Assembly (NCBI GenBank): GCA_947627695.1
Contig: CANQXF010000011.1
Location: 1-64,000 of the forward strand
Origin: an uncultured Ruminiclostridium sp.
Lineage (GTDB): Bacteria; Bacillota; Clostridia; Oscillospirales; Ruminococcaceae
Direction of reading: 5' to 3'
Length of the DNA: 64,000 nt
In this document: positions 37,164 to 58,762 of the stretch, piece by piece
Position numbering within the stretch: position 1 is the stretch's first letter
Layout: each line of letters begins with the position of its first letter
Translations under genes and position numbers: made by a program
The notes under the pieces: generated by a model
The model's database searches: none
The model's input: the letters and a program-made list of their open reading frames with translations, nothing else
Told to the model about the DNA's origin: nothing

Positions 37164-37226
37164 ATTATACCATTTTTTTACCCACTGTGCGTTGTAATCT
37201 GCGCTGTATTTGTGTCGTTTACGGCG
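37164..37226 (-). promoter_or_regulatory. Regulated promoter P2 (minus-strand peptide operon)
   Basis: TATAAT at 37169-37164 on the minus strand. ACAGCGCAGATTACA starts at 37207, exactly 38 nt upstream of the -10. The hexamer at the -35 position (ACGCAC) is non-consensus, so an activator is expected. A weaker second box (AACGCCGTA) lies about 12 nt further up. Confidence 0.75.
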
Positions 37227-37274
37227 TTTCAGCGGGTGAAAACCAAAAATCAGAGTTCAGAAGGCAAATTTATG

Positions 37275-37339
37275 ATTGTTGCAAACTACGTTTAAACAGC
37301 GCAGATTACACAGCGCTGAGGGCATTTATATGCTATAAT
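37275..37339 (+). promoter_or_regulatory. Regulated promoter P1 (Nif11 peptide / radical SAM)
   Basis: TATAAT at 37334-37339, with ACAGCGCAGATTACA starting at 37296, exactly 38 nt upstream. Another box, ATTGTTGCA, lies 12 nt further up (37275-37283). The -35 position (CAGCGC) is not consensus. It is divergent from P2, with the two boxes inverted about 90 nt apart. Confidence 0.75.
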
Positions 37340-37389
37340 TATTACAGACGATCACGTTTCCGCAAAATTTTTTAAGGAGGAACTTTACC

Positions 37390-37746
37390 ATGAAACGTGA
37401 AGAAATGATCCGAAAAGCAAAAACCGCCAAAGACCCCGAAGAGCTCGCCGGGATATTAAAAGACTCAGGTATGGGAGAAATTACCACAGAAACCGCCGAA
37501 AAGCTCTTTAACGTGCTGCACTCTTCAAAAGAGCTTACCGACGAAGAACTGGACGTTTCCGCAGGCGCAGAGATCGATGCCTCCGCAGGCGGCTGCTTCC
37601 TGTTCAATAAGACAGTCTGCCCGAACTGCCATGGCGTAGGCAATTTCTCCACCGTGACTGCGAAGAACCCCGACGGAGTTACCAGCACCGTCCACTGCAA
37701 TAATTGCGATAGCGACGTGGTCGTGCCGATGCCCGGTGTGCAATGA
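37390..37746 (+). CDS. Nif11-type RiPP precursor (C), next to the radical SAM gene
   Basis: A 118-residue precursor: Nif11-like leader (AKTAKDPEELAGILKDSG, EKLFNVLHSSKELTDEEL) with DVSAGA then DASAGG before a core with CPNCHGVG and CNNCDSD, two CxxC pairs. There are two candidate Ser-Ala-Gly processing sites. AAGGAGGA precedes the ATG. It is the first gene behind P1 and the probable substrate of the radical SAM enzyme 126 nt downstream, a pairing inferred from position. Confidence 0.88.
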   Translation: MKREEMIRKAKTAKDPEELAGILKDSGMGEITTETAEKLFNVLHSSKELTDEELDVSAGAEIDASAGGCFLFNKTVCPNCHGVGNFSTVTAKNPDGVTSTVHCNNCDSDVVVPMPGVQ

Positions 37747-37872
37747 CGGCAAACAAATTATACCACCAATGCGATAATTAAAAAGGCAAATTCTGTTACA
37801 GCTGCAACGTCGTTTATTGCTGATAATAAAGCGACACCTGTTATAAAAGGTCTATCTCTTTAAGGAAACATT

Positions 37873-39306
37873 ATGAAATACATACTTAATGAAAACATCG
37901 CTTTAAGAAGCTGGCGGCTCGTGCCGTTTGCCTATTACATCAAAGGCGTAAGACGCGCCCAAAAGCTCTCGGCGGAGGACTTTCTGTTTCTTCTTTCCTG
38001 CGACGGCAAAACCGAGCATGACCCTGAGCAGGACTGTATAAAGCGCTTTTCGGAGCTTGGACTTATCCGCCCCGCAAAGGCGGGAGAAGCTCTCAGCGAC
38101 TGGCAAAAAGCCCGCTTTTGCGACAACCGCTATATGCCCGGGGTGAACTGGTCCATAACAGGGAAGTGCAACTACAACTGCAAGCACTGCTTTATGGCAA
38201 GGGACAACGCCAAGATGATGAAGGAGTTTTCCTGGGAAGAAATGCTTGCGGCGCTGGACGAGTTTGACAAGTGCGGCATACAGACGATCGAGCTGACAGG
38301 CGGAGAGCCTATGCTCCACCCGCATTTTATGGACCTTGTCAGAGAGATCAGCCGCAGGGGAATGGACATCGACGTTATACTCACTAACGGCGCTTTTCTG
38401 ACCCCCGAGATACTTCGGGAAATAAAAGCCCTCGGTTTCAACCCACTCTTCAAAATATCCTTCGACGGTCTTACTCACCATGACTGGATGAGAGGCGTTG
38501 AAGGCGCAGAGCAAAAGACCCTTGAGGCAATAGATATGTGCGTTGCCGAGGGAGTTAGGACAGGCGTTCAGATATGCATACACAAATACAATCTGGACAC
38601 GCTTTTCGACACAGTCAAGCTGATAGCGGAAAAGGGCGTGAAGTGGATACGCGTCATACGCACCTCAGAGTCGCCGAGATGGGCGGAAAACGCCCCCGAC
38701 GCAAGCCTTGGAATTGAGGAATACTACGACGTCTCAATAGATATCCTCACAAGATACGCTAAAACAGGGCTCAAGGCAGAGCTTATACTCTGGCAGTTCG
38801 CCGACTATTACCCCAACTGCTCAGGATACCGCTTCGTGCCTGTGGACTGCTCGAAAGACCGTGAACGGGATATGCGGCGACCTACCTGCGTTGGCGCACG
38901 GGGCTCAATGGCTATATCCTCTGAGGGGCAGGTCTCGCCCTGCAACCAGATGTCAGGCTATTTCTCCAAAAACGGGTTTGACATCGGAAATATCAAAAAC
39001 GGCGTTCAGCCCCTTTTGCAGGAGAGCAGATATATGGATACCATAACCCTCTCCTGCGGTAAGGTGGGGGAGAACAAGCTCTGCTCGGTATGTAAATACT
39101 TCGGTTACTGCCTGGGCGGGTGCAGGGCTATCGCGCTTGCTTTTACCAACGATTTTCTTGCGGCAGACCCCTCAAAATGCGTGTTTTACAGAAAGGGCTA
39201 TTATCAGAAGGCAAGAAAAGCATTCGACAAGGCGGGGGAGGAATGCGGCAGAAAATTTGTCTGCGTGACCCCGATAGAAGAATTTGAAAAGGAGATGTTA
39301 TTATGA
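37873..39306 (+). CDS. Radical SAM/SPASM peptide maturase
   Basis: A 477-residue enzyme. An N-terminal PqqD/RRE-like segment (about 1-90) precedes the radical SAM core with the cluster motif CNYNCKHC (Cys99, 103, 106), TGGEPMLHP and ILTNG. The C-terminal SPASM region has CVGARG, SPCNQM, and CSVCKYFGYCLGGCRA for auxiliary iron-sulfur clusters. Such enzymes install thioether, C-C or epimerised residues in RiPPs. The next small peptide gene overlaps its stop codon (ATGA), and all neighbours are Cys-rich precursors, so these are the likely substrates. Confidence 0.92.
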   Translation: MKYILNENIALRSWRLVPFAYYIKGVRRAQKLSAEDFLFLLSCDGKTEHDPEQDCIKRFSELGLIRPAKAGEALSDWQKARFCDNRYMPGVNWSITGKCNYNCKHCFMARDNAKMMKEFSWEEMLAALDEFDKCGIQTIELTGGEPMLHPHFMDLVREISRRGMDIDVILTNGAFLTPEILREIKALGFNPLFKISFDGLTHHDWMRGVEGAEQKTLEAIDMCVAEGVRTGVQICIHKYNLDTLFDTVKLIAEKGVKWIRVIRTSESPRWAENAPDASLGIEEYYDVSIDILTRYAKTGLKAELILWQFADYYPNCSGYRFVPVDCSKDRERDMRRPTCVGARGSMAISSEGQVSPCNQMSGYFSKNGFDIGNIKNGVQPLLQESRYMDTITLSCGKVGENKLCSVCKYFGYCLGGCRAIALAFTNDFLAADPSKCVFYRKGYYQKARKAFDKAGEECGRKFVCVTPIEEFEKEMLL

Positions 39307-39527
39307 CAGAGATCAACGAAAAGGACATGGAAAATGCAGTGGGCGGTCTGTTTTCATCAGGAACCGACAGAGAACTGGTTTATGTTTTCAGCACCTGCGA
39401 AAAATATGAGCCGTCGAGCGAGGAGTATAGAAACCTTTCAAGTAATCAGCATATGTGCGCAAACTGTGCGCATTTCCACAGAGGCGGCGGGTCTTCACCG
39501 AACCTCGGCAAATGCGATCTGAAATAA
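39303..39527 (+). CDS. Cys-rich RiPP precursor peptide 4
   Basis: A 74-residue precursor: leader MTEINEKDMENAVGG, then a core with FSTCEKYEPSSEEY and the C-terminal pattern CANCAHFHRGGG with a last Cys in GKCDLK. Its ATG overlaps the stop of the radical SAM gene, so translation is coupled and this is a strong substrate candidate. Confidence 0.85.
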   Translation: MTEINEKDMENAVGGLFSSGTDRELVYVFSTCEKYEPSSEEYRNLSSNQHMCANCAHFHRGGGSSPNLGKCDLK

Positions 39528-39544
39528 AGAAAGGAGCAAACATC

Positions 39545-39652
39545 ATGAAAGAGATCGACGAAAAGGACTTGGAGCATACCGCAGTCGGCTTTTACAGCTA
39601 CACAATAAACGAAAAAATCCCCGAGAAATCTCTCGGGGATATTTATTTATAA
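39545..39652 (+). CDS. Truncated RiPP leader-like peptide
   Basis: A 35-residue ORF starting MKEIDEKDLEHTAVG, clearly a leader of the same type, after AAAGGAGC. It lacks the second glycine and has no Cys; its last ten codons overlap a terminator hairpin (39617-39640). It is probably a decayed precursor, though translation is plausible. Confidence 0.6.
   Translation: MKEIDEKDLEHTAVGFYSYTINEKIPEKSLGDIYL
39617..39640. terminator. Terminator between convergent operons
   Basis: A 10-bp stem ATCCCCGAGA / TCTCGGGGAT with A and T runs on both sides, between the peptide genes and the convergent SpoIIE gene. Confidence 0.85.
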
Positions 39653-39655
39653 AAA

Positions 39656-41266
39656 TCATTCTTCGTCCATTTTTTCCTTAAATTCCAGCGCAAGCATAGT
39701 CAGATCGTCGAACTGCTCTGCCTCGCCCACAAACTCGTCAACGTTTGTCTTGACCGCTTCAAGTATTTTCTGCGGGGACTTATCCGAATTTTCAGTAAGC
39801 ACCTTTTCCAAACGCTCCATACCGTACAGCTCCTTGTCAGCGTTTGTAGCCTCAGTAACACCGTCGGTGTATTGGAATACCTTGTCGCCGGGCTCAAGTA
39901 CCATACTGCCCGATTTATAACGCATATCCTCCATTCCCGCCAGAACGAACCCGGGCTTTATCTTATACGGCTTGAATTCTCCGCCCGCGTGGGAGATAAA
40001 GGGCATTTCGTGTCCTGCGTTGACGTACCTGAATTCGCCTGTAACAAGGTCCAGAACTCCCTCAAACGCCGTGATGAACAGCCCCTCCGAGTTTGACGAG
40101 CAGAGCATATTGTTGACCTCGCTGAACACTGCTCCAAGGTCCTCTCCAGGTTCGGTGTGATCCTTGATAAGCGTCTTTCCGATTACCATAAAGAGCGCCG
40201 CAGGAACGCCCTTGCCCGAAACATCGGCCATAACGATGGCAAGGTGGTTCTTATCGACCATAAAGAAGTCGTAGAAGTCCCCTCCCACCTCCTTTGCGGG
40301 ATTCATCGAGGCGTAAATATCGAACTCGTGTCGCTCAGGGAAAGCGGGGAAAATGCAGGGCAGCATTGATGCCTGAATGTGCCTTGCAACATCCAGCTCA
40401 GCGCCAATGCGCTCCTTCTCCGCCGTAACACGGCTCAGGTTCTTGATGTACTCGTCAAGCTCGCTCACCATATAATTCAGCGAACCTGACAGATCCTCAA
40501 GCTCGTCTCCCGTTTTAACGTCGAGCTTGAATTCGTCAAGGTGTTCTATGTTGTCCTCAACAAGCCCCGTTGCCGCTTCGTGCAGGGTCTTGATCGGGCG
40601 GATAAGTATTCTTCTGACGTAGTAGTAATACGCAAACACCGACACGATAAGAACGCCCAGTGTTATGCAGATAGTCAGAAGCATGATCTGTCTTATCTGC
40701 GCGTTTATCATATCCATCGAGATATCAACGCTTGCAAGGGCGGCAGGCTGTCCCGCGCTGTCAAGTATCGCAACGTATGCCGAGGCAAGATAGCCGTACT
40801 CCTCGTTTTCTGTGACGAGAATAGTCTGCGGGGCGTTGACCGCAAAAGCCTCGTGCATAAGCCTGTCGCCGTCGCCGTAGTAGGCGTCCTCGTCGCCCAG
40901 CTCGCACACGCCGTCCTCACCCGGAACTCCTGCGTCCCAAATGTAGACCATAACGTCGTCCTCAGGCACCACGACGTAGAAGTATTTCGGCTCGATGTTT
41001 TTCTTAAGGGAAAGCAGGTAGTCCGCCACATCAAAGTAGTAGTCGTCCTTCTCTCCCGTCTCGTAATATTTTGCAATGCTGTCGCCGTCTATGTACTCCG
41101 ACGCAGCAGAGGCAAGGCCGAACGCTAAGTTCTTGTAATATTCCTCCATTCTCATACGGTACAGCCCCGTTATCGACGGGATAAGCGCCAGAGCAAGCGC
41201 CGCCGCCATCGTTACAAGACCAAGTATCAGCTTTGGCTGAAGAGTGATTTTTCGGGTCTTTTTCAT
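39656..41266 (-). CDS. Membrane SpoIIE-type (PP2C) phosphatase with HAMP
   Basis: A 536-residue sensor phosphatase: TM1 (about 12-33), an outer sensory domain (about 34-190, Cache-like), TM2 (about 193-214), HAMP (about 215-270), a coiled linker with RIGAELDVARHIQASMLP, and a PP2C SpoIIE domain (about 310-530) with EVGGDFYDFF, VMADVSGKG and QYTDGVTEA. RsbU-type phosphatases dephosphorylate STAS anti-anti-sigma proteins; one is encoded at 63,225. Its start overlaps the formyltransferase gene by 4 nt, and GGAGGAAA lies upstream. Confidence 0.92.
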   Translation of the reverse strand: MKKTRKITLQPKLILGLVTMAAALALALIPSITGLYRMRMEEYYKNLAFGLASAASEYIDGDSIAKYYETGEKDDYYFDVADYLLSLKKNIEPKYFYVVVPEDDVMVYIWDAGVPGEDGVCELGDEDAYYGDGDRLMHEAFAVNAPQTILVTENEEYGYLASAYVAILDSAGQPAALASVDISMDMINAQIRQIMLLTICITLGVLIVSVFAYYYYVRRILIRPIKTLHEAATGLVEDNIEHLDEFKLDVKTGDELEDLSGSLNYMVSELDEYIKNLSRVTAEKERIGAELDVARHIQASMLPCIFPAFPERHEFDIYASMNPAKEVGGDFYDFFMVDKNHLAIVMADVSGKGVPAALFMVIGKTLIKDHTEPGEDLGAVFSEVNNMLCSSNSEGLFITAFEGVLDLVTGEFRYVNAGHEMPFISHAGGEFKPYKIKPGFVLAGMEDMRYKSGSMVLEPGDKVFQYTDGVTEATNADKELYGMERLEKVLTENSDKSPQKILEAVKTNVDEFVGEAEQFDDLTMLALEFKEKMDEE

Positions 41267-42090
41267 TTCGTTTCCTCCATGGAAAGTATGTGGAGCCGAA
41301 GGTGTCCGTCGGCTACTCGGTATAAAACCCTGTCGGGTGAAAGGTATATTTCCTCGCGATAAACAGGCGACATACCCGCTGTAAGTTCGGTGACGTAATA
41401 CCTCCTGCCGCCCAGCTCGACCTCCGTCATTGCGTTGTATTTTCTGAACCTGTCAAGCGCCTCGCCCCGCGTCATAGTGTGATTTATGCTCATCAGCTCT
41501 CTTTCAGGCCTGCTCCAGTAGGGAAGCGCCTCGGTCTGCGGCTTTGCTTCGTTCCAGTATCTTTCAAAATCGCCGAAAATTAGCCTTACCATTTCAGCGG
41601 CATTTTTTGCGCACTCAAGATATATATCCACGCTGTCAACGTCGGGGGTTATCGGAAAGCTCCGCTGTAATATAACGTCCCCCTTATCCAGCTTCGGGGC
41701 GAGCTTGTGCATTGTAACTCCCGTTTTAGACAGCTCGCGCTCCATCGCCGCCTCAATGGGGTAATAGCTCCTCCCCTGCGGCAAAAGCGAGCTGTGAGTA
41801 TTTATGCCTTTGAACTCGGGAACGCCCTCGGGAATGGGTATAATGCGGTTATACTCCGCCACAAAGAACATCTCGCAGCCGTCCTCACGAAAATATTTCC
41901 TCACCGCCTCAGGTGTTATTGCCTCGTAATAAACGGGTATCCCGCGCTCTTTTGCAAGCCTTGTTATTGAGTATTCGGTGAAGTAGTCCTCATCATTGTG
42001 ATATGTATAAAGCGCCAATATCTCGTGTTCCCGCAGAAAATATTCAAAGCAGGACAAAAACACGTCGCTGCCGAAATATACGACTTTCAT
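41263..42090 (-). CDS. Formyltransferase-like enzyme
   Basis: A 275-residue protein of the formyltransferase fold (Fmt, PurN, ArnA relatives). Landmarks are VVYFGSDVFLSCF at the start, GINTHSSLLPQGRSYYPIEAA (the N/H region), and TGVTMHKL with DKGDVILQ (the conserved aspartate). These enzymes move a formyl group from 10-formyl-tetrahydrofolate to an amine. In this operon the target could be a peptide, sugar or amino-acid intermediate; no evidence decides. It overlaps the SpoIIE gene and lies 9 nt after the MATE-ATPase gene. Confidence 0.8.
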   Translation of the reverse strand: MKVVYFGSDVFLSCFEYFLREHEILALYTYHNDEDYFTEYSITRLAKERGIPVYYEAITPEAVRKYFREDGCEMFFVAEYNRIIPIPEGVPEFKGINTHSSLLPQGRSYYPIEAAMERELSKTGVTMHKLAPKLDKGDVILQRSFPITPDVDSVDIYLECAKNAAEMVRLIFGDFERYWNEAKPQTEALPYWSRPERELMSINHTMTRGEALDRFRKYNAMTEVELGGRRYYVTELTAGMSPVYREEIYLSPDRVLYRVADGHLRLHILSMEETK

Positions 42091-42099
42091 ATTATCCCT

Positions 42100-43854
42100 C
42101 TAAATCCTTATTATAAGTGTGTTAAAGCCCTGATAGCGCCGATAGAAAAACTCCTTCGCGCGCTTTTTTATGACCAGCACGCCCATGCTGTCCATATCGA
42201 AATCGCCGTCGACGCTCGCCTTTTCGGTCTCAAGTCCGAACGGGTTGAACGAGGTGGCGTCGTCGCGCATATGAAGCTCCAGAATGCCGCTTTCGTACAT
42301 AATTGCGGTTATCTGTATATATCCGTCGGTCCTGCCGCTGAAGCCTTTGTTTAAGATAGCCATACCTATCTCCTCAACGGTCATCGTCACCAGCATACTC
42401 TGCTTCATATCGGCGCCCCATTTTTCGCAGAACTCCTCAAGCTCATGGCTGACGTCCATAACGTCGCTGGAATTGCTTAATATCGTCTTTTGGTATATCC
42501 TGTCCTCCGACACTCCTTCGCCCTTGTATCTCCCGCCCAGCGAGGTCAGAAGGAACACGCCGAGTGACCCCGCCTCTGTGAGAAGAAACAGCAGCCAGAA
42601 GTATTGAAGTCCGAACATATTGCACAAAAACGTCAGCGGTATCAAAAGCACAGCACCCCTGAGCGTCTCTAAAATAAAGGAGGGCTTTTCGTTGCCGCAG
42701 GCCTGATAGTATCCGCATATCAGTATATTCAGTCCCGCAAACAGCGCCGCTATTCCGTAAATTCTGAGCGCAACATAAGCAAGCGCCTCCGAGCTTGAGC
42801 CCGCTATGCCGAAAAGGGAACACATCAGCCCGGGGAACACCTCCACCAGAATTATCAATGCCCCGCCGACCGCAAGCCCGCTTTTTAAGCCGAGGGAAAC
42901 GACGCTCTTTTTGCCCTTTGAGTTATGCTCGCCCTGATACGTTGAGAGTATCGGCTGCATTGCCCGTGAAGTCCCCTCAAACAGATAAAGTATAAGGTAT
43001 GACGTGTTCTGGATAACGTCGAATACCGCTACTGCTTCCTCACCGCCGAGGCGAATAAGCATATTGTTGCATATCAGGAAGAATATCATCTGATATAAAT
43101 ACTGCACCGAGGTCGCAAGCCCCGCCTTCATTGATGCGAAAGAGCCGAATATCTCATACCCGCTTGGCAAGGTGAAGCGAAGTGAGCTGCCCTTTCGGAA
43201 GAACCCCGGGAGATATATGCCTATTGCGATTATCTGCCCCAAAGCGGTAGAAAGAGCCGCACCCTGCGCGCCCATATCGAGAAAGATGACCAGTATAACG
43301 TTTAAAGCTATGTCGCATACGTTTCCCACCACCGAGCCGAGCCCCGCGAGCTTCTGACTCTCGTTGTTGCGAAGAAAATAGTTGAATATGTTGGACATAT
43401 AAAAGAGAGGCGTGGCGGAAACGAGTATCCTCAGATACCCCTTTGTAGCAAGGTAGAGCTCACCGTCAGCAGTCTTTGTGCCCAAAAGGTTCAGCAGCTG
43501 CTCAATAAAGATATTTCCAAATATCGCAGTAGATATGCTGAAGATAAGAGCGAGCCAGAAAACGCCGTTAAAACCCTTTTTAGCGGCGTCTCTCTTTCCC
43601 TCGCTCATCAGTCTTGAATATTTCACCGAGCCGCCCAGTCCAAGAGCGTGGGCGAACATACAGTTTATCATATATACGGGAAGTATCAGCCCGATAGCCG
43701 CAAGCCCCACTCCGCCCAGCTTTTGCCCGACTACTACCGCGTCAGCCATATCGCTCAGCGCCCAGCCCAGCGACGACAGCATTGCGGGGATCCACAGGCG
43801 GCGGAACATCTTCCCGGTAAAACCGTCCTTAACGTGCAGAAAGATCATCTCCAC
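42100..43854 (-). CDS. MATE transporter fused to RsbW-like ATPase domain
   Basis: A 584-residue fusion. Residues about 1-445 are a MATE-family antiporter with twelve membrane helices (LSSLGWALSDMADAVVVGQ, SQKLAGLGSVVGNVCDIALN). Residues about 455-584 are a GHKL ATPase of the RsbW/SpoIIAB type: VTMTVEEIGMAIL (N box), HMRDDATSFNPFG and MDSMGVLVIKKRA. RsbW proteins phosphorylate STAS partners or hold sigma factors. A transporter carrying such a domain is unusual. The GTG start at 43854 is uncertain; an ATG two codons on or one at about residue 16 is possible. Confidence 0.88.
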   Translation of the reverse strand: MEMIFLHVKDGFTGKMFRRLWIPAMLSSLGWALSDMADAVVVGQKLGGVGLAAIGLILPVYMINCMFAHALGLGGSVKYSRLMSEGKRDAAKKGFNGVFWLALIFSISTAIFGNIFIEQLLNLLGTKTADGELYLATKGYLRILVSATPLFYMSNIFNYFLRNNESQKLAGLGSVVGNVCDIALNVILVIFLDMGAQGAALSTALGQIIAIGIYLPGFFRKGSSLRFTLPSGYEIFGSFASMKAGLATSVQYLYQMIFFLICNNMLIRLGGEEAVAVFDVIQNTSYLILYLFEGTSRAMQPILSTYQGEHNSKGKKSVVSLGLKSGLAVGGALIILVEVFPGLMCSLFGIAGSSSEALAYVALRIYGIAALFAGLNILICGYYQACGNEKPSFILETLRGAVLLIPLTFLCNMFGLQYFWLLFLLTEAGSLGVFLLTSLGGRYKGEGVSEDRIYQKTILSNSSDVMDVSHELEEFCEKWGADMKQSMLVTMTVEEIGMAILNKGFSGRTDGYIQITAIMYESGILELHMRDDATSFNPFGLETEKASVDGDFDMDSMGVLVIKKRAKEFFYRRYQGFNTLIIRI

Positions 43855-43991
43855 AAATATCAGAGTATATTTTATTATATCATATTATATCATAAAATGA
43901 AAGTTTTGTATATGATCAGCCGTCTTTTTTTCTGTTCCACACGCAGTCAGGGAGCAAAATGCGGCTTAAAATATAATAACAGCCTTCGATT

Positions 43992-44035
43992 ATTATACCA
44001 TATTTTTCGACCTGCCGACGTGTTGTCTGCGGAAA
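43992..44035 (-). promoter_or_regulatory. Regulated promoter P6 (MATE-ATPase operon)
   Basis: TATAAT at 43997-43992 on the minus strand; TTTCCGCAGACAACA starts at 44035, exactly 38 nt upstream, and keeps the core CGCA-GA-C-A-ACA. The -35 position (CGTCGG) is not consensus. The leader to the MATE gene is about 130 nt. The rest of the gap 43,855-44,171 holds this promoter, P3 and AT-rich sequence with another TATAAT near 43,885. Confidence 0.65.
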
Positions 44036-44079
44036 TTACAAGCCGCAAACAATGGGTCTTTTTTCAGGCTTTATGCCGA

Positions 44080-44144
44080 TATGTCGCAATCGGCATAAAA
44101 ACAGCGCAGATAACACGTCACGGCGGTTTCAAATGTGCTATAAT
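44080..44144 (+). promoter_or_regulatory. Regulated promoter P3 (plus-strand peptide cluster)
   Basis: TATAAT at 44139-44144; ACAGCGCAGATAACA starts at 44101, exactly 38 nt upstream; a second box TATGTCGCA lies 12 nt further up (44080-44088). The -35 position (CGTCAC) is non-consensus. It is divergent from P6. Confidence 0.75.
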
Positions 44145-44171
44145 ATATGTAAAGGGAAAAGGAGGTGCGAC

Positions 44172-44420
44172 GTGGCAAACGGTATTTTATCAGATGACCA
44201 GCTGTTTAATGTTTCGGGAGGAACTGACAGTGCTGATACAGAGGACATATCCTCCAATTACAGCTCCTGCGGTGACTGGATCTGTGCGTCCTGCCGCTGC
44301 CCCTGCACCGATAAGATACACTTATGCAATAACGGCGGCATTTCACGGACAGTCTGCCGCTATTGCCTGAATTATGATTTGGCAGGAGAAGTATGCAGAT
44401 TAGGTCACTCTTTTATCTGA
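44172..44420 (+). CDS. Cys-rich RiPP precursor peptide 5
   Basis: An 82-residue precursor starting at a GTG with AGGAGGT upstream. The leader ANGILSDDQLFNVSGG ends in a double-glycine site; the core has eight cysteines, including CASCRCPC and CRYCLNYD. The start is supported by the P3 promoter, with transcription from about 44,151. The frames beginning at 43,648 and 44,052 are upstream artefacts. Confidence 0.82.
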   Translation: MANGILSDDQLFNVSGGTDSADTEDISSNYSSCGDWICASCRCPCTDKIHLCNNGGISRTVCRYCLNYDLAGEVCRLGHSFI

Positions 44421-44463
44421 CACAGACAAAGCGTTGACGGAAAAAATAACAGGAGGAACCGCT

Positions 44464-44668
44464 ATGGAAAAGGAAAAGCATCTGATGAGCGATGAGGATA
44501 TGGAAAAAATCGGGGGGGGGGTACACTATAAGAAATAACCACGAAATATGTGACCAATTTGAGCCGATACCGTATTCTACAACGTCCAAATATTACTGTC
44601 GGCACTGTGTACATTACGTTAGTATACCTGGCATAGGCATAGACTTAGGAAAATGCGACGTCAGATAA
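44464..44668 (+). CDS. Cys-rich RiPP precursor peptide 6, frameshifted at a 10-G run
   Basis: The ATG (after GGAGGAACC) begins a leader MEKEKHLMSDEDMEKIGGG, where the glycine codons form a run of ten G (44512-44521). In the present sequence the frame ends soon after (VHYKK, stop). With nine G it would continue YTIRNNHEICDQFEPIPYS, then KYYCRHCVHYV and GKCDVR, matching the next two paralogs. The gene is therefore out of frame by one base at a homopolymer right at the cleavage site, either phase-variable or a sequencing artefact. Confidence 0.75.
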
Positions 44669-44690
44669 GTATTGACTTCGGAGGAATATT

Positions 44691-44894
44691 ATGGATAACG
44701 AAAAAAACACTCTTAATGACAGCGAGCTTGAAAACGTCGGGGAAGGGCATACTGTAAAAGGAGACGATGAAATATGCGATCGGTTTGAGCCGATCTCGTA
44801 TTGTATCGGAATGGACAATTTTCATTGCAGACACTGCATACATTTCGTTTTGCGTTCAATAACAGATTTATCAGGAAAATGCAGCGTCAAATAA
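44691..44894 (+). CDS. Cys-rich RiPP precursor peptide 7
   Basis: A 67-residue paralog of the neighbours: leader MDNEKNTLNDSELENVGEG (Gly-Glu-Gly rather than double glycine), then EICDRFEPISYC and CRHCIHFV with a last Cys in GKCSVK. CGGAGGAAT precedes the ATG. The altered cleavage site may reduce export. Confidence 0.8.
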   Translation: MDNEKNTLNDSELENVGEGHTVKGDDEICDRFEPISYCIGMDNFHCRHCIHFVLRSITDLSGKCSVK

Positions 44895-44916
44895 GTATCG
44901 ATTTCGGAGGAATATT

Positions 44917-45117
44917 ATGGATAACGAAAAAAACGCTCTTGATGACAGCGAGCTGGAAAACGTCGGCGGAGGCTATACCGTCGGCAACGATGAAGAAATA
45001 TGCGACCAATTTGAACCGATACCGTATTATCATTTGCAAAAGTATTATTGCAGACACTGTGTTCATTACGTAAAAATGCCGGGGGTCACTGCCGTAGGAA
45101 CGTGCGACGCAAAATAA
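44917..45117 (+). CDS. Cys-rich RiPP precursor peptide 8
   Basis: A 66-residue paralog with an intact leader end (SELENVGGG), then EICDQFEPIPYYH and CRHCVHYVKMPG with a last Cys in GTCDAK. It has the same spacing and ribosome site as precursor 7, which shows tandem duplication. It is followed by a small membrane protein gene. Confidence 0.82.
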   Translation: MDNEKNALDDSELENVGGGYTVGNDEEICDQFEPIPYYHLQKYYCRHCVHYVKMPGVTAVGTCDAK

Positions 45118-45204
45118 TACAGCCCCCGCTTCGGCAGAAAACAATTTTTGGATAATTCCCGCAAGGGTTTATCATATATCACATAAGTCAGGAGTAATGA
45201 AAAA

Positions 45205-50254: not shown

Positions 50255-53200
50255 AACGTCAAAAGGTTAGGAGATCTTTTTTCATAAAGACCTGTCGGCG
50301 ACTGATCTATAATGTATATGGAATTTATGCCTTTTATTTTTGAAATGGTAGAGTTGATAGTCAGGGCCCCTGCGTTATCCTTTCCTCCGATAGATTTAAG
50401 ATCGCAGCCCGTGGATCTGCCTGTTTTGAGCAAAGATAATATGTTGGCGAGCGTTACGGTCTGTTCAGTAAGAGAAAGCTTTTCAAAATTTTCTCTGCAG
50501 GAATTTACTTTATTGCCCGTATCGCCAAGTTTTACTTTAAACGGCACTGACAGCATTTTATTTACAAGAACATCAAATAATTCAATATTATTTTCGCAGC
50601 TTATTCCGATACTGTTTTCAGCGCTGTTTCTTTTATCTGTCTTGTACTTTTCCGTAAATGAACTTATCCTTTTTGCATAGTCGTAATGCTTTTTATCGAG
50701 TATAAGTGAAACGGCAGAAGAAATACCTAAATTTTTGCCGCCTGAAGATTTACAGGTAATATTTGCCCTGAATCCGTCAATTTCAATCAGAGTATTGATT
50801 TTTACAGCACGGTCGCCCAACGGAAATATTATTTCGTTTGCATTGATTTCCTGATTTAAAATGATTGAAAGTTGTTTTGCAGCATAATTTTCAGCATACT
50901 CTTTGCTTGAAGAATATTTTTCCGCATACATAAGCTCCACAGGAATAAAAGTAATAGCTCCGCCATACTTCACCAAAGAAAAATATGATGCAGTTGTGTT
51001 GTTATAACCTCCGTATTTTGCGGTATCAAGTCCTTGCTTTCTTTCAACAAGTCCCTCGCTTTTTCGTTCAGGCAGTTGGTTAAACAATCCGCCTTTTCGC
51101 CTGTAACAGTATCTTACGTATCTTATACTGTTTTTGCTCATCATCTTTTTTACAATGTCAAAAGAAACGGACGGATCCCACGCAATATTTTCTCCGCGTG
51201 CAACTCTGCGGGTAAGCAGCCCGCTTTCCTTGCCGCCTTGAGAGCGCTTGAATATCTTTAGTGAATATTGCTCTCCGCTTTTTATAAAATTAAGCGGATT
51301 TTCGGTAAATTGTGTGTTATATACGTTCCCCATGACTATATTGAGGTATGCATCTTTTGCATGGTGAAGATCATTCACTTCCCGACATTTGAGCATATCC
51401 ATTTCCTGACGGAATTCAGATGTAAGACCTGCTTTTACATATATGATCCTTGAGTTGGGGCATATCTCCTTGATGAGCTCTGCAACAGCTTTTGTCGATT
51501 GCCTTGTTTCTACCAGCTGCCTTGAAATAAATCCTGCAAGCTCTTCTTCAGTAAAATTCGTGCTTCTTGTCAGACGCTGATATTTCTTTTCGCCTATCAA
51601 TCCTTTATCTCTCAGAGCGTTCCAGAAAATGCGCATTTTTTGCTTTATATCAGCAGAGATAGGGTATTTGTCGCCCTTTGCGCCATTTGCCTCGGATTCC
51701 ACAAGAACTTTATTTTCAAGGCTGTCATCCTTGACCTTTGCCTGAGGATATATATGATCGATATTGTAGTATGTATCGTTTCCCAGCCTTTCAAAATCAA
51801 TAGCGTGTCCTGTATACATACATCTTCCCAGCTGAATAAAGTACAAATAATATTTTTCGCTCCGCAGCCTGCCGTCGTCGGTGCGGTCAAGCTGCGAATA
51901 CAATTCGTTCAGACGCTCTTTATCCGCCATATCTTTTGCTAAATTATATAATTCTTTTATCTGCTCTCGCCGTGATTTCGTGCGTTTTCCTTTGTTGTTC
52001 TGATTACTTTCCCTCGCCATTTCTATAAAGATCTTGTCGGGGTCTTTTCCGATAATGCTTTTTACTTCTTTTACAATATCCAGTGTTCTTGTTACTGAAC
52101 GTCTTACGGCTGTGGGAATATACATTTCCTTCATTCTTTCTTCGATCGTTTTATGATTAGTGGGGTCGGAATAGAAATCAGCGTTGTATTTCTCAATGAC
52201 GTTCCCGTATCTGTATTTTGAGCCGAGTATCTGCATCAAATTATCATTGGTTTCCCAAAGTGCATTTATAATATTCCTGTCGCTTTTTGCCTCACCGTTT
52301 GTGTCGATCTCCCATATTTCTTCAAGAAGCTTTCGGGACAGCCTGCCGTAATCTTTATAATTAAGGCTTGACAAATACTTCAGATCTGCATCGCTTAAAC
52401 CGATATAATTGTTTTTCAGCCATTTCTTAAGTCTGGCGGTATCTGTGGTCGCAGTTATTCTTTCAATGATCCTTTCAGCGTCAGTTTCCTTGAGAGCGCC
52501 TGATTCAAGCAATCTTTTAAAATCGTGATAGGACTTTAAAGAAGATTTGATACTTACATCTATTCCGCCTATGGATTGTCCGTCTTTAAATTCACCGCAC
52601 GCTTTCAGACAATTTTCAATTGCTTTTATAGTGACCCGCTGCTTTTTCATAAACAGCTCGTTGAAGATCCTCTGCTTGGCACTTACGGAAATTTTGCTGC
52701 CGTCAACGGTAATATTGTTTATTTCGTTAAGAACGCTGAATTTGCAATACAGCAGAGAATTTTTAGGTAAAACATCCTCTCCTGCAAGATATGTGCATTT
52801 GCAGGTCATTCTTCTGATGAAGGCGTTTTCCGTCTTGTCTAGGTCGATTTTCTCGTGATAGTTCCACGGATAGATTTTGCCTTCGGCTTTTCTTTCCATC
52901 CAGGCAAAGTTGCTTTTCTCACTGCTTACGAGAGGCCCGACATAATACGGTATTCTAAACTCCATTATGCTCAGTATTTTGTCGGCAACAGTACCGTATT
53001 CGTCCTTGTCATTGAGAAAAGGAAGATAAGCTGACGCGTTTTCAAGTATTTGTTTCAATTCCGCATAATAAAGCTGATAAGGTATGACTCTGTTGTCCGT
53101 GGTTTTTTGTTTCGGGCAGAGCTTGAAATTTTTGCATTTATCTATCAGTTCATCTAATAAAGGTTTGTCTGAACTTTCAGATTTGACGCTTTCAAGGAAT

Positions 53201-54357
53201 TTGAGAACAAATTTGCAAAAGTCCTCCTGACTGCACTTTTTATTTTTAACAGCGCCATTATAAACATATGTGGAATAATTGCTTTTTTCTTGTGTATCCT
53301 TAAAAATTTCGCAATACTGCTTTTGGGTAAGGTATTTTTTGCATATGTATTTCAGATTATGCAGATCTTTTTGGTGCTTTTTATAAACATCAGCCTTGGC
53401 AGCCGAAATGCTGCTGCATTCTCCAAGCGACCGCACGAGCAGCGATTGATCGCACAGTTTTTTTACCGCATCAAGAAGTTCCCACTGATCATCTTCCAAT
53501 ATGCCGTACATCGAATCCAGCGTATCTGTAAAATCGGCAGACAATACCGATATGGAGTTTTTGTCAAGGTCTTTGTAACTCTCGTTCAAAAAAAGGTCTG
53601 ACAATTTGACTGTACCGCCGCTCAACAGCTTTATCAGGCAGTCAAAGCGCAGGCCGCTGCACAAATCATTTTTAGGCTTATTTTTTGTGAACCATAATTC
53701 TGTCAGGCATTTTGATTTCTCTGTAACAGAACGGTCTGATCTTAAAATTTCCGACATTTTATCGGGATCGCTGTCAAACGGAATTGTTTCGCAAATATTT
53801 GTCAGAGCGTTTATAAAACCATCATGCAATGGAGTAAAATCGGTTATTTTCTCTGCGCTGTCTTTATCGACGGAATACAAAAAATGTCCTCTGTGCGACA
53901 GAATATATGCACATGCAAGGTAAACCTGCCTTACATCGTGTTCACTCTTATCCTGCATAAGCTCGCATATAAGGTGATGTATGGTAGGGTAATTTTCAAA
54001 ATATTCCTTATCTGTAAAATCTTCGTCATCAAAAAATATATTATTGGTGCGATGCTCACTGTCCTCAGGGAGCAAAGAGCTTTCCTTTAACCTCATGAAA
54101 AAAGTTTTGTCCACTTTCAAAATTTCTTTTGCGAAAAATTCCTGAAGCAAGGAAATTCTTTGCTTGCGCCGTTCAAGACGTCGGCGCGCAGTACGAAATG
54201 TTCTCCTTTCCGCAGATTGCTCCGCTTCATCAAAAAGATGCACTCCCCACATAAGATTGTTATGGAATTTTCTTAAATTATATTGTTCGTTAGTAACAGC
54301 CCAACCGATAGAATTTGTACCGATATCAAGACCCAAAAAATTTTTTTCGTCCACCAC
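50251..54357 (-). CDS. cas9: CRISPR-associated nuclease Cas9 (type II-A)
   Basis: A 1368-residue RNA-guided double-strand nuclease. RuvC-I is LGLDIGTNSIGWAV (Asp11), the bridge helix RTARRRLERRKQRISLLQ, RuvC-II FIEMARESNQ, the HNH site NIDHIYPQAKV and RuvC-III LHHAKDAYLNIVMG. Length is typical of II-A. It starts at a GTG with GGAGG 9 nt upstream; this start region overlaps the -35 of the divergent tracrRNA promoter. All nuclease motifs are intact, so it should be active. The PAM cannot be read from the window. Confidence 0.98.
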   Translation of the reverse strand: MVDEKNFLGLDIGTNSIGWAVTNEQYNLRKFHNNLMWGVHLFDEAEQSAERRTFRTARRRLERRKQRISLLQEFFAKEILKVDKTFFMRLKESSLLPEDSEHRTNNIFFDDEDFTDKEYFENYPTIHHLICELMQDKSEHDVRQVYLACAYILSHRGHFLYSVDKDSAEKITDFTPLHDGFINALTNICETIPFDSDPDKMSEILRSDRSVTEKSKCLTELWFTKNKPKNDLCSGLRFDCLIKLLSGGTVKLSDLFLNESYKDLDKNSISVLSADFTDTLDSMYGILEDDQWELLDAVKKLCDQSLLVRSLGECSSISAAKADVYKKHQKDLHNLKYICKKYLTQKQYCEIFKDTQEKSNYSTYVYNGAVKNKKCSQEDFCKFVLKFLESVKSESSDKPLLDELIDKCKNFKLCPKQKTTDNRVIPYQLYYAELKQILENASAYLPFLNDKDEYGTVADKILSIMEFRIPYYVGPLVSSEKSNFAWMERKAEGKIYPWNYHEKIDLDKTENAFIRRMTCKCTYLAGEDVLPKNSLLYCKFSVLNEINNITVDGSKISVSAKQRIFNELFMKKQRVTIKAIENCLKACGEFKDGQSIGGIDVSIKSSLKSYHDFKRLLESGALKETDAERIIERITATTDTARLKKWLKNNYIGLSDADLKYLSSLNYKDYGRLSRKLLEEIWEIDTNGEAKSDRNIINALWETNDNLMQILGSKYRYGNVIEKYNADFYSDPTNHKTIEERMKEMYIPTAVRRSVTRTLDIVKEVKSIIGKDPDKIFIEMARESNQNNKGKRTKSRREQIKELYNLAKDMADKERLNELYSQLDRTDDGRLRSEKYYLYFIQLGRCMYTGHAIDFERLGNDTYYNIDHIYPQAKVKDDSLENKVLVESEANGAKGDKYPISADIKQKMRIFWNALRDKGLIGEKKYQRLTRSTNFTEEELAGFISRQLVETRQSTKAVAELIKEICPNSRIIYVKAGLTSEFRQEMDMLKCREVNDLHHAKDAYLNIVMGNVYNTQFTENPLNFIKSGEQYSLKIFKRSQGGKESGLLTRRVARGENIAWDPSVSFDIVKKMMSKNSIRYVRYCYRRKGGLFNQLPERKSEGLVERKQGLDTAKYGGYNNTTASYFSLVKYGGAITFIPVELMYAEKYSSSKEYAENYAAKQLSIILNQEINANEIIFPLGDRAVKINTLIEIDGFRANITCKSSGGKNLGISSAVSLILDKKHYDYAKRISSFTEKYKTDKRNSAENSIGISCENNIELFDVLVNKMLSVPFKVKLGDTGNKVNSCRENFEKLSLTEQTVTLANILSLLKTGRSTGCDLKSIGGKDNAGALTINSTISKIKGINSIYIIDQSPTGLYEKRSPNLLTL

Positions 54358-55041: not shown

Positions 55042-55764
55042 TCAGAACGTATTCATATACTCAATAAAGCTTTTTCTCAAGCTGTCGTAATATTTTCTTC
55101 CTATTGGAAGCGTCACGCGGCAGTCAAGCGCCACTCCTCCAAGACGTGAGATATGCGTCACCCTCGCCAGATTTACCGCAAACGAGTTATGGCATCTTGC
55201 AAAGCAGGACTGTGGCAGCTCGTTTATCAGTTCGGTAAAGGTCGTTCGTGAAACGTAGTCTGCCTTTCTGGTATGTACCGTCGTCAGGTGGTCTATCACC
55301 TCGAGATAAAGTATGCTCTCCACAGGCACGGGTATCTGCTTTCTGTCGCACTTGATAAAGACGTTTTTCGTCCATATCCTCCGCTTAAGGTCCGATTTGA
55401 TCGCTTTTTCAAGCTCAGCGGGATCTATCGGCTTCATCAGGAAATATACAGGCTGGACGGAATATCCCGCCAGCAAAAAGCTGTCGTCCACCGTCATAAG
55501 AACGAATGATATTTCCTCGCCTCGCTCCTTGAGTATCCGAGCCAGGTCTATCCCGCTTTTGTTTCCGAGCCGTATGTCCAGAAACATCAGGTCCAGCTTT
55601 ACGCCCTGCGCGACGTACCGAAGGACCTCCTGCTCGCTGTAATATTCCTTCAGGACATATTGGATCTTAAGCTTTTCCATTGCGTTCATACAAAGCCTTC
55701 CCATCTGTCGGACAAATTCCTTGTCGTCGTCGCAGATGGCGATGGTATATTTATATGACGGCAT
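55042..55764 (-). CDS. LytTR-family response regulator (AgrA-like)
   Basis: A 240-residue regulator: receiver domain (about 5-125) with the acidic pocket ICDDDKEF, the phospho-acceptor in MFLDIRLGNKSG and the lysine in FLMKPID, then a LytTR DNA-binding domain (about 135-238; PVESILYLEVIDHLTTVHT, FARCHNSFAVNLARV). LytTR proteins bind paired 9-bp direct repeats such as ACAGTTAAG with 12-nt spacing, often near the -35. The boxes at P1-P6 have that form. AAGGAGGA precedes the ATG. It follows the kinase gene by 13 nt. Confidence 0.92.
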   Translation of the reverse strand: MPSYKYTIAICDDDKEFVRQMGRLCMNAMEKLKIQYVLKEYYSEQEVLRYVAQGVKLDLMFLDIRLGNKSGIDLARILKERGEEISFVLMTVDDSFLLAGYSVQPVYFLMKPIDPAELEKAIKSDLKRRIWTKNVFIKCDRKQIPVPVESILYLEVIDHLTTVHTRKADYVSRTTFTELINELPQSCFARCHNSFAVNLARVTHISRLGGVALDCRVTLPIGRKYYDSLRKSFIEYMNTF

Positions 55765-55777: not shown

Positions 55778-57419
55778 TTACTGACCGTTAGTTTCGAGAG
55801 CAGTCATGGCGATAAACTCGTCGTTTTCTCTTTTTATCACAAGCTCCGAGCCGTAGCGTGAGCATATTTTCTTCATTGTAAGAATGCCGAAACCGTGGCT
55901 GGTGATGTCCTTTTTCGGCTCGTCCTTCGGCAAAATATAGCTGTTTGCACAGCGAATGTTGAGATACCCGTTTTTGAGCGAAACGGAGAAGTCGATATAT
56001 CTTTTCTCCTCGCTTACTGCCATACAGGCGTTAAAGGCGTTGTCAAACATATTCATAATGAGCTGACAAAGGTCCTCGTCCCGTATGCCCAGCTCCGCAG
56101 GTGCGCTCACCTGCACAGTGAGCTTAACTCCCTCCTCGGCAGCTCTTGCCGAAGCGGAGTTAAGAATAACGTCCAGTACCGCCGATTTGGCGTAGCTCAG
56201 CCTTTCGCCGCTGTTAATGAAGCTGCTCTTTTCGTCTAAGTATTTTCCTATCTCCTCTGTACGTCCCTGCTCGTATAAAAGCGAAAGGGTCATCAGATCG
56301 TGCTTCCATTCGTGCCGCACCTCGGCAGTTCGCCGCACCCCAGCGACGATATTCTTATACGCCGAGAGTATCGCCCTGTTCTGACTTTCAAGTGCTATCT
56401 TATCCGCCTGTATCTTCACCGATTCACGGACGTGGTATACCGTCACCGCAAGTGCACAGGCAAGTATCAGATAGTTTGAGACGACGATTATTGCGTTTGA
56501 GAACGACTGGGAGTAAATGAGCGAACCGAGCAGCTGCAGCTCCAGAAATACCGAAGGCACATTGTCAAATATGATGGTTATGACGTTCGCAGCGATTATC
56601 AGCGCCGCAATGACCCCTAAGAATATAAGTATATACCGAAGCACAGGCTTTTTAAGGTTTAATATGATAAACAAAAGCATCATCGGCGCTATGGCGTAGC
56701 GAAGTACCTAAAACATCTGCTCGGAATAGCTCCAGTCAAGCTCAAAGGTGCCTGTCTCCTTTAATCGGCATAGGCAGAAGGAAATACTTGCGGCAGCAAG
56801 GAAGATAAGGCTGAAATCGGGTGATGAAAAATATATGCTCATCAGAAACAGACCGATAGCCAGCAGAAAGCATATCCCTGAGATCCCCGCGAATATCGCC
56901 GACGGTGTCGCTATCCTTGCGACCTGAAGATCGTGCGACGCGGAGTTGCTCACATATATCATCACAGGGAAAATATAGTTCTGCGGGTCGGTATATCTCG
57001 CCGTCACCGTCACTGTCTTTTCCTTTTCAAGCGGCGACACCGAGAAGCTTATCCCCGAGGGACTGGAAATGTTTTGCCCGCCTGGGACCGTGCCGCAAAA
57101 CACCGTCTCGCCGTCCACCATTATCTCCGCCTCTCCTGCGCCCATGCTTATACTCAGGGCCTTGAAATCGCCGTCGACGACGTACACAGTTTTGTAAACT
57201 CCATCGAAGCGTATCTCCTGCTCATATATTTTGTCGCCGGGAATAACGGTTCCCCCCGCTGCCGTCGTCTAGAATAAAGCTGACAGCGGTCTCGTAAAGT
57301 ATCTCGTCAGAAATATCGGTAGTATTGGAAAAAAACGAAAACAGTCCGCCTATCGCAATGCACGCAGCGATAAAGACTGTTATCAGTATAAAAAATTTGA
57401 TTTTTTTCACAGTGATCAC
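55778..57419 (-). pseudogene. AgrC-like sensor kinase gene with frameshift and in-frame stop
   Basis: Three fragments form one kinase. The N-part (57419-57222) has a membrane helix and an outer segment; near 57,255 a six-G run shifts the frame, and the right frame continues TVIPGDKIYEQEIRFDGVY into the next part. The middle part (to 56,708) has an outer beta domain and membrane helices, ending EQMF and an in-frame TAG. The same frame then runs VLRYAIAPMMLLFIILN into the kinase part, which has further helices, RHEWKHDLMTLSLLYEQG (phospho-acceptor His), NMFDNAFNACM (N box) and GFGILTMKKI. Either a broken gene or errors; the kinase part alone could still be made from 56,683. Confidence 0.75.
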
Positions 57420-57505: not shown

Positions 57506-57534
57506 ATTATAACATACAGACGAAAAAAATTCAA
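57506..57534 (-). promoter_or_regulatory. Promoter of the kinase-regulator genes
   Basis: TTGAAT, 17-nt spacer, TATAAT (57511-57506) on the minus strand, upstream of the kinase gene. It has no box at the 38-nt position, so the regulator genes seem not to be part of their own regulon by this route. Confidence 0.6.
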
Positions 57535-57606
57535 CTGCCCGAAAATGGGATAAATGTAATTCGCGGCAAAAATACGCCGTAGATAACACTCCTGGACGGC
57601 TTTTCC

Positions 57607-58581
57607 CTATATTTTCGGCTGATCCGACCTTTTTATCCGCTTTCCGATCGCGTTCAGACCGTTTATTATAAGCGGCGCCCCGGCGGTTATGTAAAGTATC
57701 AGCACGAATTGCTCGCAGGCCTTTCCTATCCCGCCCGCTATCAGCTCTGATACAAGCGGTGCGGCGTATTCCTTCATCAAAAAGTATATCCCCACACAAA
57801 CAGCGTAGCGTATTATTCTGGCGATAATTCCGCCCCCGCAGTCAAATTTGATGAATCTCCTTTCCAAAAACCACCCCAGTATGAACCCCAGCCCCATACC
57901 TGCATTTTTAAATGCGTCGGCAGACATTTTTGCAGGATCGACTATAAGCTCTCCCGCGGCGTCGTAGTCCATAGGGTAGGATTTCACAGAGGCATAAACG
58001 ACGAGTATAACGCAGAGCACCGCCCCGCAAATAAGAACTATCCAGTCCTTTTTGGGATTTTTGTCCACCCAGCCGAGCAATGCCCGAAACGCAAACAAAA
58101 GCACAGCGGCAAGAATTATCGACACGATGACGTCCTGCGGAGTGTGAACGCCCAGATAGTTGCGTGAAAAGCCTATCAGCAGGACGAGGACTATTAAGAT
58201 CACCCTGAAAATTTTGTTCCGCCCCTTTTTCATCGCAAGCCCGCCGAAGAAGCTGGAAGCATTTGCGGCATGTCCGCTTGGGAAAGAATATCCTGTGGCG
58301 TCTGCCATTGCTCCCTGAACGGGAACCACCCTTGCGTCCCGTATCCACGGGCGGTAAACGCAGGCGGTTATCTTAAAAAACGCATTTACGACCCTGTTAT
58401 AGTAAAAGGTGAGCATAAGGTATATCCCCTCTTGCTTGTCTATACACCAATACACCGCCGCCACAAGAAGAGTAACGATAGAAGCCTCACCCAGCTTTGT
58501 AACGACCTCCATAAAGACGTCCAATATCCCGCCCGTCGCCTCACGCAAACTTTGCAGTAGCAAAAGATAATCTATGTCCAT
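57607..58581 (-). CDS. PAP2-family membrane phosphatase
   Basis: A 324-residue integral membrane protein with the PAP2 motifs KITACVYRPW (motif 1 region), SFPSGHAANASS (motif 2) and FSRNYLGVHTPQDVIVS (motif 3). Relatives dephosphorylate undecaprenyl pyrophosphate or phosphatidic acid. AAAGGAGAA precedes the ATG. It is driven by promoter P4 of the peptide regulon, so a link to export, envelope protection or immunity is possible; this is inference. Confidence 0.9.
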   Translation of the reverse strand: MDIDYLLLLQSLREATGGILDVFMEVVTKLGEASIVTLLVAAVYWCIDKQEGIYLMLTFYYNRVVNAFFKITACVYRPWIRDARVVPVQGAMADATGYSFPSGHAANASSFFGGLAMKKGRNKIFRVILIVLVLLIGFSRNYLGVHTPQDVIVSIILAAVLLFAFRALLGWVDKNPKKDWIVLICGAVLCVILVVYASVKSYPMDYDAAGELIVDPAKMSADAFKNAGMGLGFILGWFLERRFIKFDCGGGIIARIIRYAVCVGIYFLMKEYAAPLVSELIAGGIGKACEQFVLILYITAGAPLIINGLNAIGKRIKRSDQPKI

Positions 58582-58616
58582 ACTTTTCTCCTTTAGTTCA
58601 ACAGAAATTATCTATA

Positions 58617-58681
58617 ATTATATCACATAATATCCGACCGTGCTGTGTAATCTGCGCTGTTAAAACGCGACCTGCGACATA
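58617..58681 (-). promoter_or_regulatory. Regulated promoter P4 (PAP2 gene)
   Basis: TATAAT at 58622-58617 on the minus strand; ACAGCGCAGATTACA starts at 58660, exactly 38 nt upstream; a second box TATGTCGCA, identical to that of P3, lies 12 nt further up. The -35 position (CAGCAC) is non-consensus. Confidence 0.75.
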
Positions 58682-58697
58682 AGCCGTTACCCCGCCG

Positions 58698-58762
58698 CCT
58701 GTTTTATGCGGTCTGAATTTAGCGCAAACAACATTGCGCAGGTGCGGCAAGTGTGGTATAAT
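58698..58762 (+). promoter_or_regulatory. Regulated promoter P5 (ABC exporter genes)
   Basis: TATAAT at 58757-58762; TTAGCGCAAACAACA starts at 58719, exactly 38 nt upstream, keeping AGCGCA and ACA. Box 1 is weaker (CCTGTTTTA). The -35 position is TTGCGC. Divergent from P4. Confidence 0.65.

Follow-up and report, generated by a model that had tools for sequence, protein, structure and literature searches.

What switches on a locus whose bacteriocin-like peptide, export and sensor genes lie behind separate promoters? We addressed this question in a 64,000-nucleotide (nt) stretch of contig CANQXF010000011.1 from an uncultured Ruminiclostridium sp. (hereafter the window), in which six promoters, P1 to P6, carry a common box upstream of TATAAT. 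Our analysis indicates that the shared element is most likely the operator of a LytTR two-component activator encoded at position 55,042 of the same window, which would switch on promoters devoid of a -35 element and feed back on itself. The source organism is probably a gut bacterium, judging by its relatives; the relatives named below are metagenome assemblies, and sequence errors are therefore possible.

Six promoters share a box at a fixed distance from the -10

The original prediction had assigned a 15-nt box to each of the six promoters. Its coordinates and strands proved correct, and each box begins 38 nt ahead of the first T of TATAAT.

P1, 37280..37339, plus strand: upstream copy 37280-37290 (TGCAAACTACG), downstream copy 37300-37310 (CGCAGATTACA), TATAAT 37334-37339
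P2, 37164..37223, minus strand: upstream copy 37223-37213 (CGTAAACGACA), downstream copy 37203-37193 (CGCAGATTACA), -10 37169-37164
P3, 44085..44144, plus strand: upstream copy 44085-44095, downstream copy 44105-44115, -10 44139-44144
P4, 58617..58676, minus strand: upstream copy 58676-58666, downstream copy 58656-58646, -10 58622-58617
P5, 58703..58762, plus strand: weak upstream copy 58703-58713, downstream copy 58723-58733, -10 58757-58762
P6, 43992..44051, minus strand: weak upstream copy 44051-44041, downstream copy 44031-44021, -10 43997-43992

We scanned the 2.70-Mb genome with a strict pattern fitted on P1 to P6 themselves (CGCARAYWACA-N20-TGNTATAAT), using the reversed pattern as the control. 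All six exact matches were P1 to P6, with one next-best site at 2 mismatches; allowing up to 3 mismatches yielded 20 matches, compared with 9 for the control. The combination of box and spacing is thus no chance match, whereas the 15-mer box by itself was unspecific (327 genome matches versus 64 for the control at up to 3 mismatches) and was rejected as a marker. A loose double-box pattern with up to 2 mismatches was rejected as well, being about as frequent in background loci as near LytTR genes. No tandem repeats were found within 36,000-46,400.

The element is a direct repeat with a 20-bp period

We aligned 30 promoters, six from the window and 24 from nine loci in seven related genomes. 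Across this alignment the element is a direct repeat of the 11-mer CGYARAYDACA with a period of 20 base pairs (bp): the two copies agreed on average at 5.83 of 11 positions at 20 bp versus 1.13 of 11 at 21 bp. In the downstream copy, six of 11 positions were invariant, two were conserved in 28 and 29 of the 30 rows and two were always R and Y, an invariance that is partly built in, as is that of the TG before the -10, because the rows, which include close orthologues, were all chosen by the box and the first scan pattern also contained TG. The upstream copy played no part in selecting the rows drawn from relatives. Left outside the alignment, for their different spacing or -10, were the promoter class P7 described below, a G064 site with TAAAAT and the G166 site; the G433 sites and further G073 and G072 sites were found later and are likewise not among the 30 rows.

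Upstream of the window promoters, direct repeats thus occur in pairs spaced by some two turns of the helix, weakly so at P5 and P6. Second boxes had been described as present at P1, P3 and P4 and weaker at P2 and P5. This held for P1, P3, P4 and P5; at P2 the upstream copy is also strong (7/11), and P6 has a weak one (3/11) that had not been listed. Overall, the copies agree at 6-7 of 11 positions in P1 to P4. The clearest pairs are found in relatives, namely CGCAGATTACA-N9-CGCAGACTACA at locus L107 and CGTAAACGACA-N9-CGTAAACGACA in G073. The pairing proposed initially, of 9-mers with the form ACAGnnnAG at a 21-nt period, was rejected: the 9-mers agree at just 1.7 of 9 positions, and such a pairing is absent from the sequence. 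An ACAG start is confined to downstream copies in the window and its close kin; in G073, TGT forms the three bases preceding the downstream 11-mer at four of seven sites.

Target promoters combine an extended -10 with no -35

P1 to P6 were said to have no consensus -35, and this was borne out: the best candidates at 16-18 nt match one to three of six positions, and the distribution of -35 matches across the 30 promoters resembles that of random sequence. TG precedes TATAAT in all six window promoters and in 30/30 aligned rows, giving an extended -10 (TGnTATAAT).

We then left the spacing free and scanned 10 genomes with a loose pattern, CGYRRAYDACA-N{16,46}-TATAAT. The scan returned 66 rows representing 56 distinct -10s, which take in P1 to P6 and their orthologues; the reversed control gave 8 matches. 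The box lay exactly 23 nt from the -10 in 36 of the 56 and 22-24 nt in 41, while four showed a spacing of 43-44 nt and 11 lay elsewhere. Nine sites came from the window genome: P1 to P6, P7 and two sites without TG at spacings of 19 and 20. G166 gave no matches because its -10 reads TAAAAT.

A seventh operator precedes the kinase and LytTR genes

The LytTR-type regulator gene was present at 55,042 as described. Upstream of it and its kinase gene we identified a seventh operator, absent from the original prediction, at 57,555-57,585 on the minus strand.

P7, 57506..57585, minus strand: upstream copy 57585-57575, downstream copy 57565-57555 (CGCGAATTACA), -35 TTGAAT 57534-57529, -10 57511-57506
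LytTR response regulator, 55042..55764, minus strand: 240 amino acids (aa), candidate activator; LytTR 2.8e-16 and receiver 4.4e-13, both above cut-off
GHKL sensor kinase gene, 55778..57419, minus strand: three pieces, 57222-57419, 56708-57187 and 55778-56683

The operator of P7 lies 43 nt from the -10, compared with 23 nt at the targets, and thus 20 bp higher. Promoters of this type (43-44 nt) serve the kinase-LytTR genes in five genomes: the window genome, G068, G075, G073 (44 nt) and, at its C22 copy, G076, a case spotted by eye, in which the -10 is of poor quality (TAAATC) and the box departs from the consensus. Unlike the targets, all five have a -35 with four to five matches at 17 nt. 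In G064, a promoter is present between the PAP2 and kinase genes, with no box seen there. The likely phospho-acceptor of the regulator, D63, was invariant in 9/9 sequences.

These two geometries bear on two further explanations. The element might be no operator but part of an alternative-sigma promoter class, or else a structure formed in RNA or DNA. Its fixed distance to the -10 would fit, and the SpoIIE, STAS and HATPase genes of the regulon are kinds that control sigma factors. However, the -10 is an ordinary extended TGnTATAAT, and the element also occurs at 43-44 nt together with a -35, an arrangement that direct sigma contact would not allow. Nothing in Rfam reached the gathering score within 35,000-64,000. 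We consider this explanation highly improbable. Alternatively, the element could be a LytTR operator used for repression, with the regulator blocking the -35 region until its release; indeed, the downstream copy ends where a -35 would begin. Yet P7 possesses a -35 and its operator is displaced away from it, and target promoters lacking a -35 should be weak without an activator, which counts against repression. In addition, the LytTR regulators described in PMC6560143 and PMC6193735 activate from comparable positions. The chance that the operator serves repression is accordingly slight.

The operator follows the LytTR/kinase pair in related genomes

We next compared the occurrence of operator and regulator in a genus sample of 71 genomes and a family sample of 396 genomes. 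A LytTR orthologue with 54-100% identity was found in three genus genomes (G000, G068 and G064), and the exact operator was found in the same three; the next best LytTR by E-value was 28% identical, and none listed exceeded 32%. G064 (99% complete) has kept the LytTR, kinase, PAP2 and STAS genes, together with two operators, the first exact and the second with a TAAAAT -10, while the radical SAM gene had no match in it at 1e-30. In the family sample, LytTR matches at 1e-40 occurred in four genomes, three of which carry the exact double box. The fourth, G166, belongs to another genus; its LytTR is 34% identical, and its double box, one letter off the pattern, is located between the kinase and a divergent gene (CGTAAACGACG-N10-CGTAAACGACA). 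This site scored 27.3 bits with a matrix built without G166; when that 40-kb region was randomly resampled 30 times (first order), no score exceeded 16.4 bits.

The exact double box occurred in eight of the 396 genomes, versus three for the control. These eight are the three with LytTR, G230, and four without a complete promoter (G252, G163, G036 and G326), a number close to that of the control. The G252 double box (L197 1501-1532, plus strand) has a period of 21 and a TATAAT 23 nt on with TG absent, and G252 has no LytTR match at 1e-40. From identical coordinates, G230 is probably the same genome as G071, and G127 the same as G072.

Relatives of the radical SAM gene at L105 and L109-L115 showed no promoter box at up to 2 mismatches, and LytTR matches in the genomes of these loci reach at most 39%, the top one covering part of the protein. 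The contig of L103 is without the box, although operators do occur elsewhere in the genome to which it belongs, G073. We took five of them from other contigs of this draft (spacing 22-23 nt; three further matches at 16, 16 and 19 were left out): three precede leader-type precursors, the fourth a MATE gene whose tail resembles an ATPase (22.7 bits against a Pfam cut-off of 27.4) and the fifth a lipoprotein-like gene. The G073 contigs are short draft pieces, so these genes may be chromosomal neighbours. Operators on other contigs were also found in G433, one preceding a leader-type peptide and the other no clear gene, and in G072, at a contig end.

Because the operator occurs in the same three of 71 genus genomes as the LytTR gene, is kept in G064 without the radical SAM gene and lies beside the kinase in G166, the genomes compared indicate that, across three genera of the family, its distribution follows that of the LytTR/kinase pair and not that of the peptide genes.

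The genes that the G166 operator faces are not peptide genes (L156 8083-14174, minus strand): one product is a 191-aa protein with a membrane segment at its N terminus, the other a surface-type protein of 1863 aa.

Genes behind the promoters

The targets named in the original prediction (precursors, the radical SAM gene, the MATE-ATPase/formyltransferase/SpoIIE operon, PAP2 and the exporters) were all found as described.

36696..37115, minus strand: Nif11-like-leader, Cys-rich precursor behind P2 (TIGR03798 26.5 bits, below the cut-off of 32.3)
37390..37746, plus strand: Cys-rich precursor behind P1
37873..39306, plus strand: radical SAM/SPASM protein behind P1
39656..43854, minus strand: P6 operon, with SpoIIE phosphatase 39656-41266, formyltransferase-like 41263-42090 and MATE-HATPase 42100-43854
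57607..58581, minus strand: PAP2-superfamily membrane protein behind P4
58788..63521, plus strand: P5 operon, with NHLM-type exporters (C39-ABC, ABC) 58788-60986 and 60999-63182, and STAS 63225-63521

P2 also stands upstream of the precursors behind its first gene, and P3 upstream of precursor-type open reading frames (ORFs) from 44172 onward. Behind P4, the kinase and LytTR genes follow PAP2. Both exporters exceeded their cut-offs (NHLM ABC1, 939.4 bits against 853.3; ABC2, 738.5 bits against 709.4). The Nif11 leader model TIGR03798 had no match in 37390-37746 or 35505-35783, and the radical SAM protein was above no NCBIfam cut-off among the matches listed (25 of 74 families).

Operators of this same type precede not only the peptide genes but also parts of a partner-switch system: SpoIIE, STAS, the MATE-HATPase fusion and, beyond the window after the STAS gene of the P5 operon, a HATPase_c_2 gene (L193). 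These loci are 39656-43854 (minus strand) and 63225-63521 (plus strand) in the window, L193 533-2055 (plus strand) and L146 165-3780 (minus strand). The ORFs tested yielded no sigma factor.

Between the LytTR gene and P3, the window carries a type II CRISPR-Cas system at 46420-54357 (Cas9, Cas1, Cas2, Csn2 and an array). In G068 the distance from P3 to P4 is just 4.2 kb, and the system is therefore absent there. Elsewhere in the window, an SrpI-like type 2A encapsulin shell gene is followed by a class-V aminotransferase family gene (24414-27093, plus strand).

Evidence against the proposed regulator and an alternative

Several observations weigh against control by the cluster's own LytTR regulator. 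The window genome lacks an intact cognate kinase, its kinase gene being broken by a frameshift and an in-frame stop, compared with a single 562-aa ORF in G068. The kinase of G433 is largely deleted, and the LytTR gene of G072 contains an in-frame stop. The circuit may thus be decaying, and in the window genome it may be uninducible or use another phosphate source. G071 (99% complete) carries two operators and the radical SAM gene, and its best LytTR is only 26% identical; here the locus lies at a contig end. More distant LytTR genes (29-34% identity; G668, G724, G650 and G702) have no such operator within the surrounding 7-9 kb. The upstream copies of P5 and P6 are near chance (2/11 and 3/11). 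Finally, PMC4847170 describes LytTR sites as repeats of 9-11 nt that are separated by 11-13 nt and share no consensus; counted in 11-mers, the spacer here is 9, and a fit requires 9-mers or 20-bp units.

Could a regulator encoded elsewhere in the genome bind the element instead, for example a helix-turn-helix dimer on the palindrome-like TGTCG-N4-CGACA of several upstream copies? The operators of G071 without a close LytTR would suit this explanation, as would a LysR gene about 4 kb from the G064 operators. Upstream copies are also more self-complementary than shuffled ones (2.63 of 7 pairs versus a mean of 1.73 and a maximum of 2.30 in 500 shuffles). The better-conserved downstream copy, however, is not palindromic (1.30 of 7 versus a null of 1.50), and in three genera the site goes together with the LytTR/kinase pair, including G064 and G166, where the radical SAM gene is missing. 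Moreover, among 32 window ORFs tested with Pfam, no LysR or other transcription-factor domain besides LytTR was found. We therefore judge another regulator to be unlikely, although less so than an alternative-sigma element or a repressor site, and retain the LytTR regulator as the best candidate.

The kinase is uninterrupted in G068, G075, G073, G064, G072, G166 and the C22 copy of G076, and all of these except G072 have kinase-LytTR pairs free of such damage. Sensor-side damage recurs across loci (window 55778-57419, minus strand; L154; L102 7972-8700, minus strand; and L108, where the kinase is missing), and the C14 locus of G076 is without a kinase. Near the 34%-identical LytTR gene of G724 we observed a different 20-bp repeat, TTCCCACTTGC / ATCCCAGTTGC (L190 4690, plus strand).

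A model for a switchable regulon

The operator, its spacing, conservation and co-occurrence with the regulator, and the genes behind the promoters, are read from sequence; from these we infer binding, activation rather than repression, control by phosphorylation and feedback. The paired site is most likely bound by the LytTR regulator of the cluster, and the peptide, export and sensor genes would therefore form one switchable regulon. Two response-regulator monomers would bind the two 11-mer copies on one helix face, at a distance of two turns, and would bring RNA polymerase to promoters whose sole element is an extended -10. The Nif11-like precursors, radical SAM enzyme, exporters, MATE-ATPase/SpoIIE genes and PAP2 would then be switched on together. 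Since P7 has a -35, a basal level of regulator would be made, and its operator 20 bp higher could provide positive feedback, to which read-through from P4 may add.

A broader reading is conceivable, although we put it forward tentatively. The regulator may represent a Clostridia LytTR/GHKL subgroup with its own operator code (CGTAAACGACA-like pairs) and two tiers of promoters, namely targets in which the operator replaces the -35 and a regulator promoter that has a -35 with the operator two turns higher. This subgroup might have been recruited for modified peptides, a partner-switch module and, in G166, a surface protein, with repeated decay of its sensor side in the genomes that bear peptides, as in strains that cheat or listen.

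These results propose a binding code for a LytTR subgroup of little-studied Clostridia and tie peptide production, export and the SpoIIE/STAS partner-switch module into one testable switch. They name the regulator through which the cluster could be woken. Operator and fixed spacing also locate further genes of the system without protein similarity, as with the G073 precursors and MATE gene.

Comparison with known systems

Co-occurrence, P7 and promoter geometry lend good support to the proposal that a LytTR regulon joins the two halves of the locus; the classification of its regulator as AgrA-type is not supported, and we rejected an Agr system. The regulator shares a LytTR DNA-binding domain with AgrA (3bs1, E 1.4e-4) but reached only 20.9 bits with the AgrA model (cut-off 400) and has a different operator, and AgrB (PF04647) had no match in the whole genome, with a weak control (1 of 14 genomes gave a signal, none above cut-off). 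As in NHLP/Nif11 bacteriocin clusters, we find NHLM exporters, Nif11-resembling leaders and a radical SAM/SPASM enzyme; unlike in those clusters, the leader falls below the Nif11 cut-off. Among the literature matches listed, LytTR control of Nif11/radical-SAM clusters was not found. The nearest precedent is Clostridium acetobutylicum, where Agr controls a lanthipeptide-synthetase-like gene (PMC10301443).

HdrRM and BrsRM of Streptococcus mutans are autoregulating LytTR systems that share with our locus direct repeats upstream of promoters, an extended -10 (hdrRM), bacteriocin targets and, as proposed for ours, positive autoregulation (PMC6193735). In those systems the partner of the LytTR protein is a membrane inhibitor, and the 9-bp repeats sit 4-11 bp above a -35, whereas here a receiver-LytTR regulator is paired with a GHKL kinase and the targets have no -35.

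Among solved structures, the best relative covering most of the regulator is ComE (4cbv, E 3.8e-11). ComE and BlpR of Streptococcus pneumoniae govern bacteriocin genes and their own regulator. As proposed here, a LytTR activator acts through repeats spaced by some two turns, whose distance to the start is fixed. The spacers of ComE sites measure 11-13 nt and the sites lie 42-44 nt from the start, whereas BlpR uses tandem repeats of 19-21 bp that end 33 nt from the start; frameshifts, as in our kinase gene, are mentioned for blpA and blpB (PMC6560143). With the start placed 7 nt past the -10, our downstream 11-mer would end about 35 nt before it, closest to BlpR. The systems differ in that no pheromone gene was identified in our locus, the kinase has a large N-terminal region, the operator reads CGYARAYDACA rather than ACADTTGAGR, and control extends to Nif11-like, radical SAM and partner-switch genes of a clostridial genome. 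Taken together, the regulon most likely belongs to a known class and uses a new DNA code.

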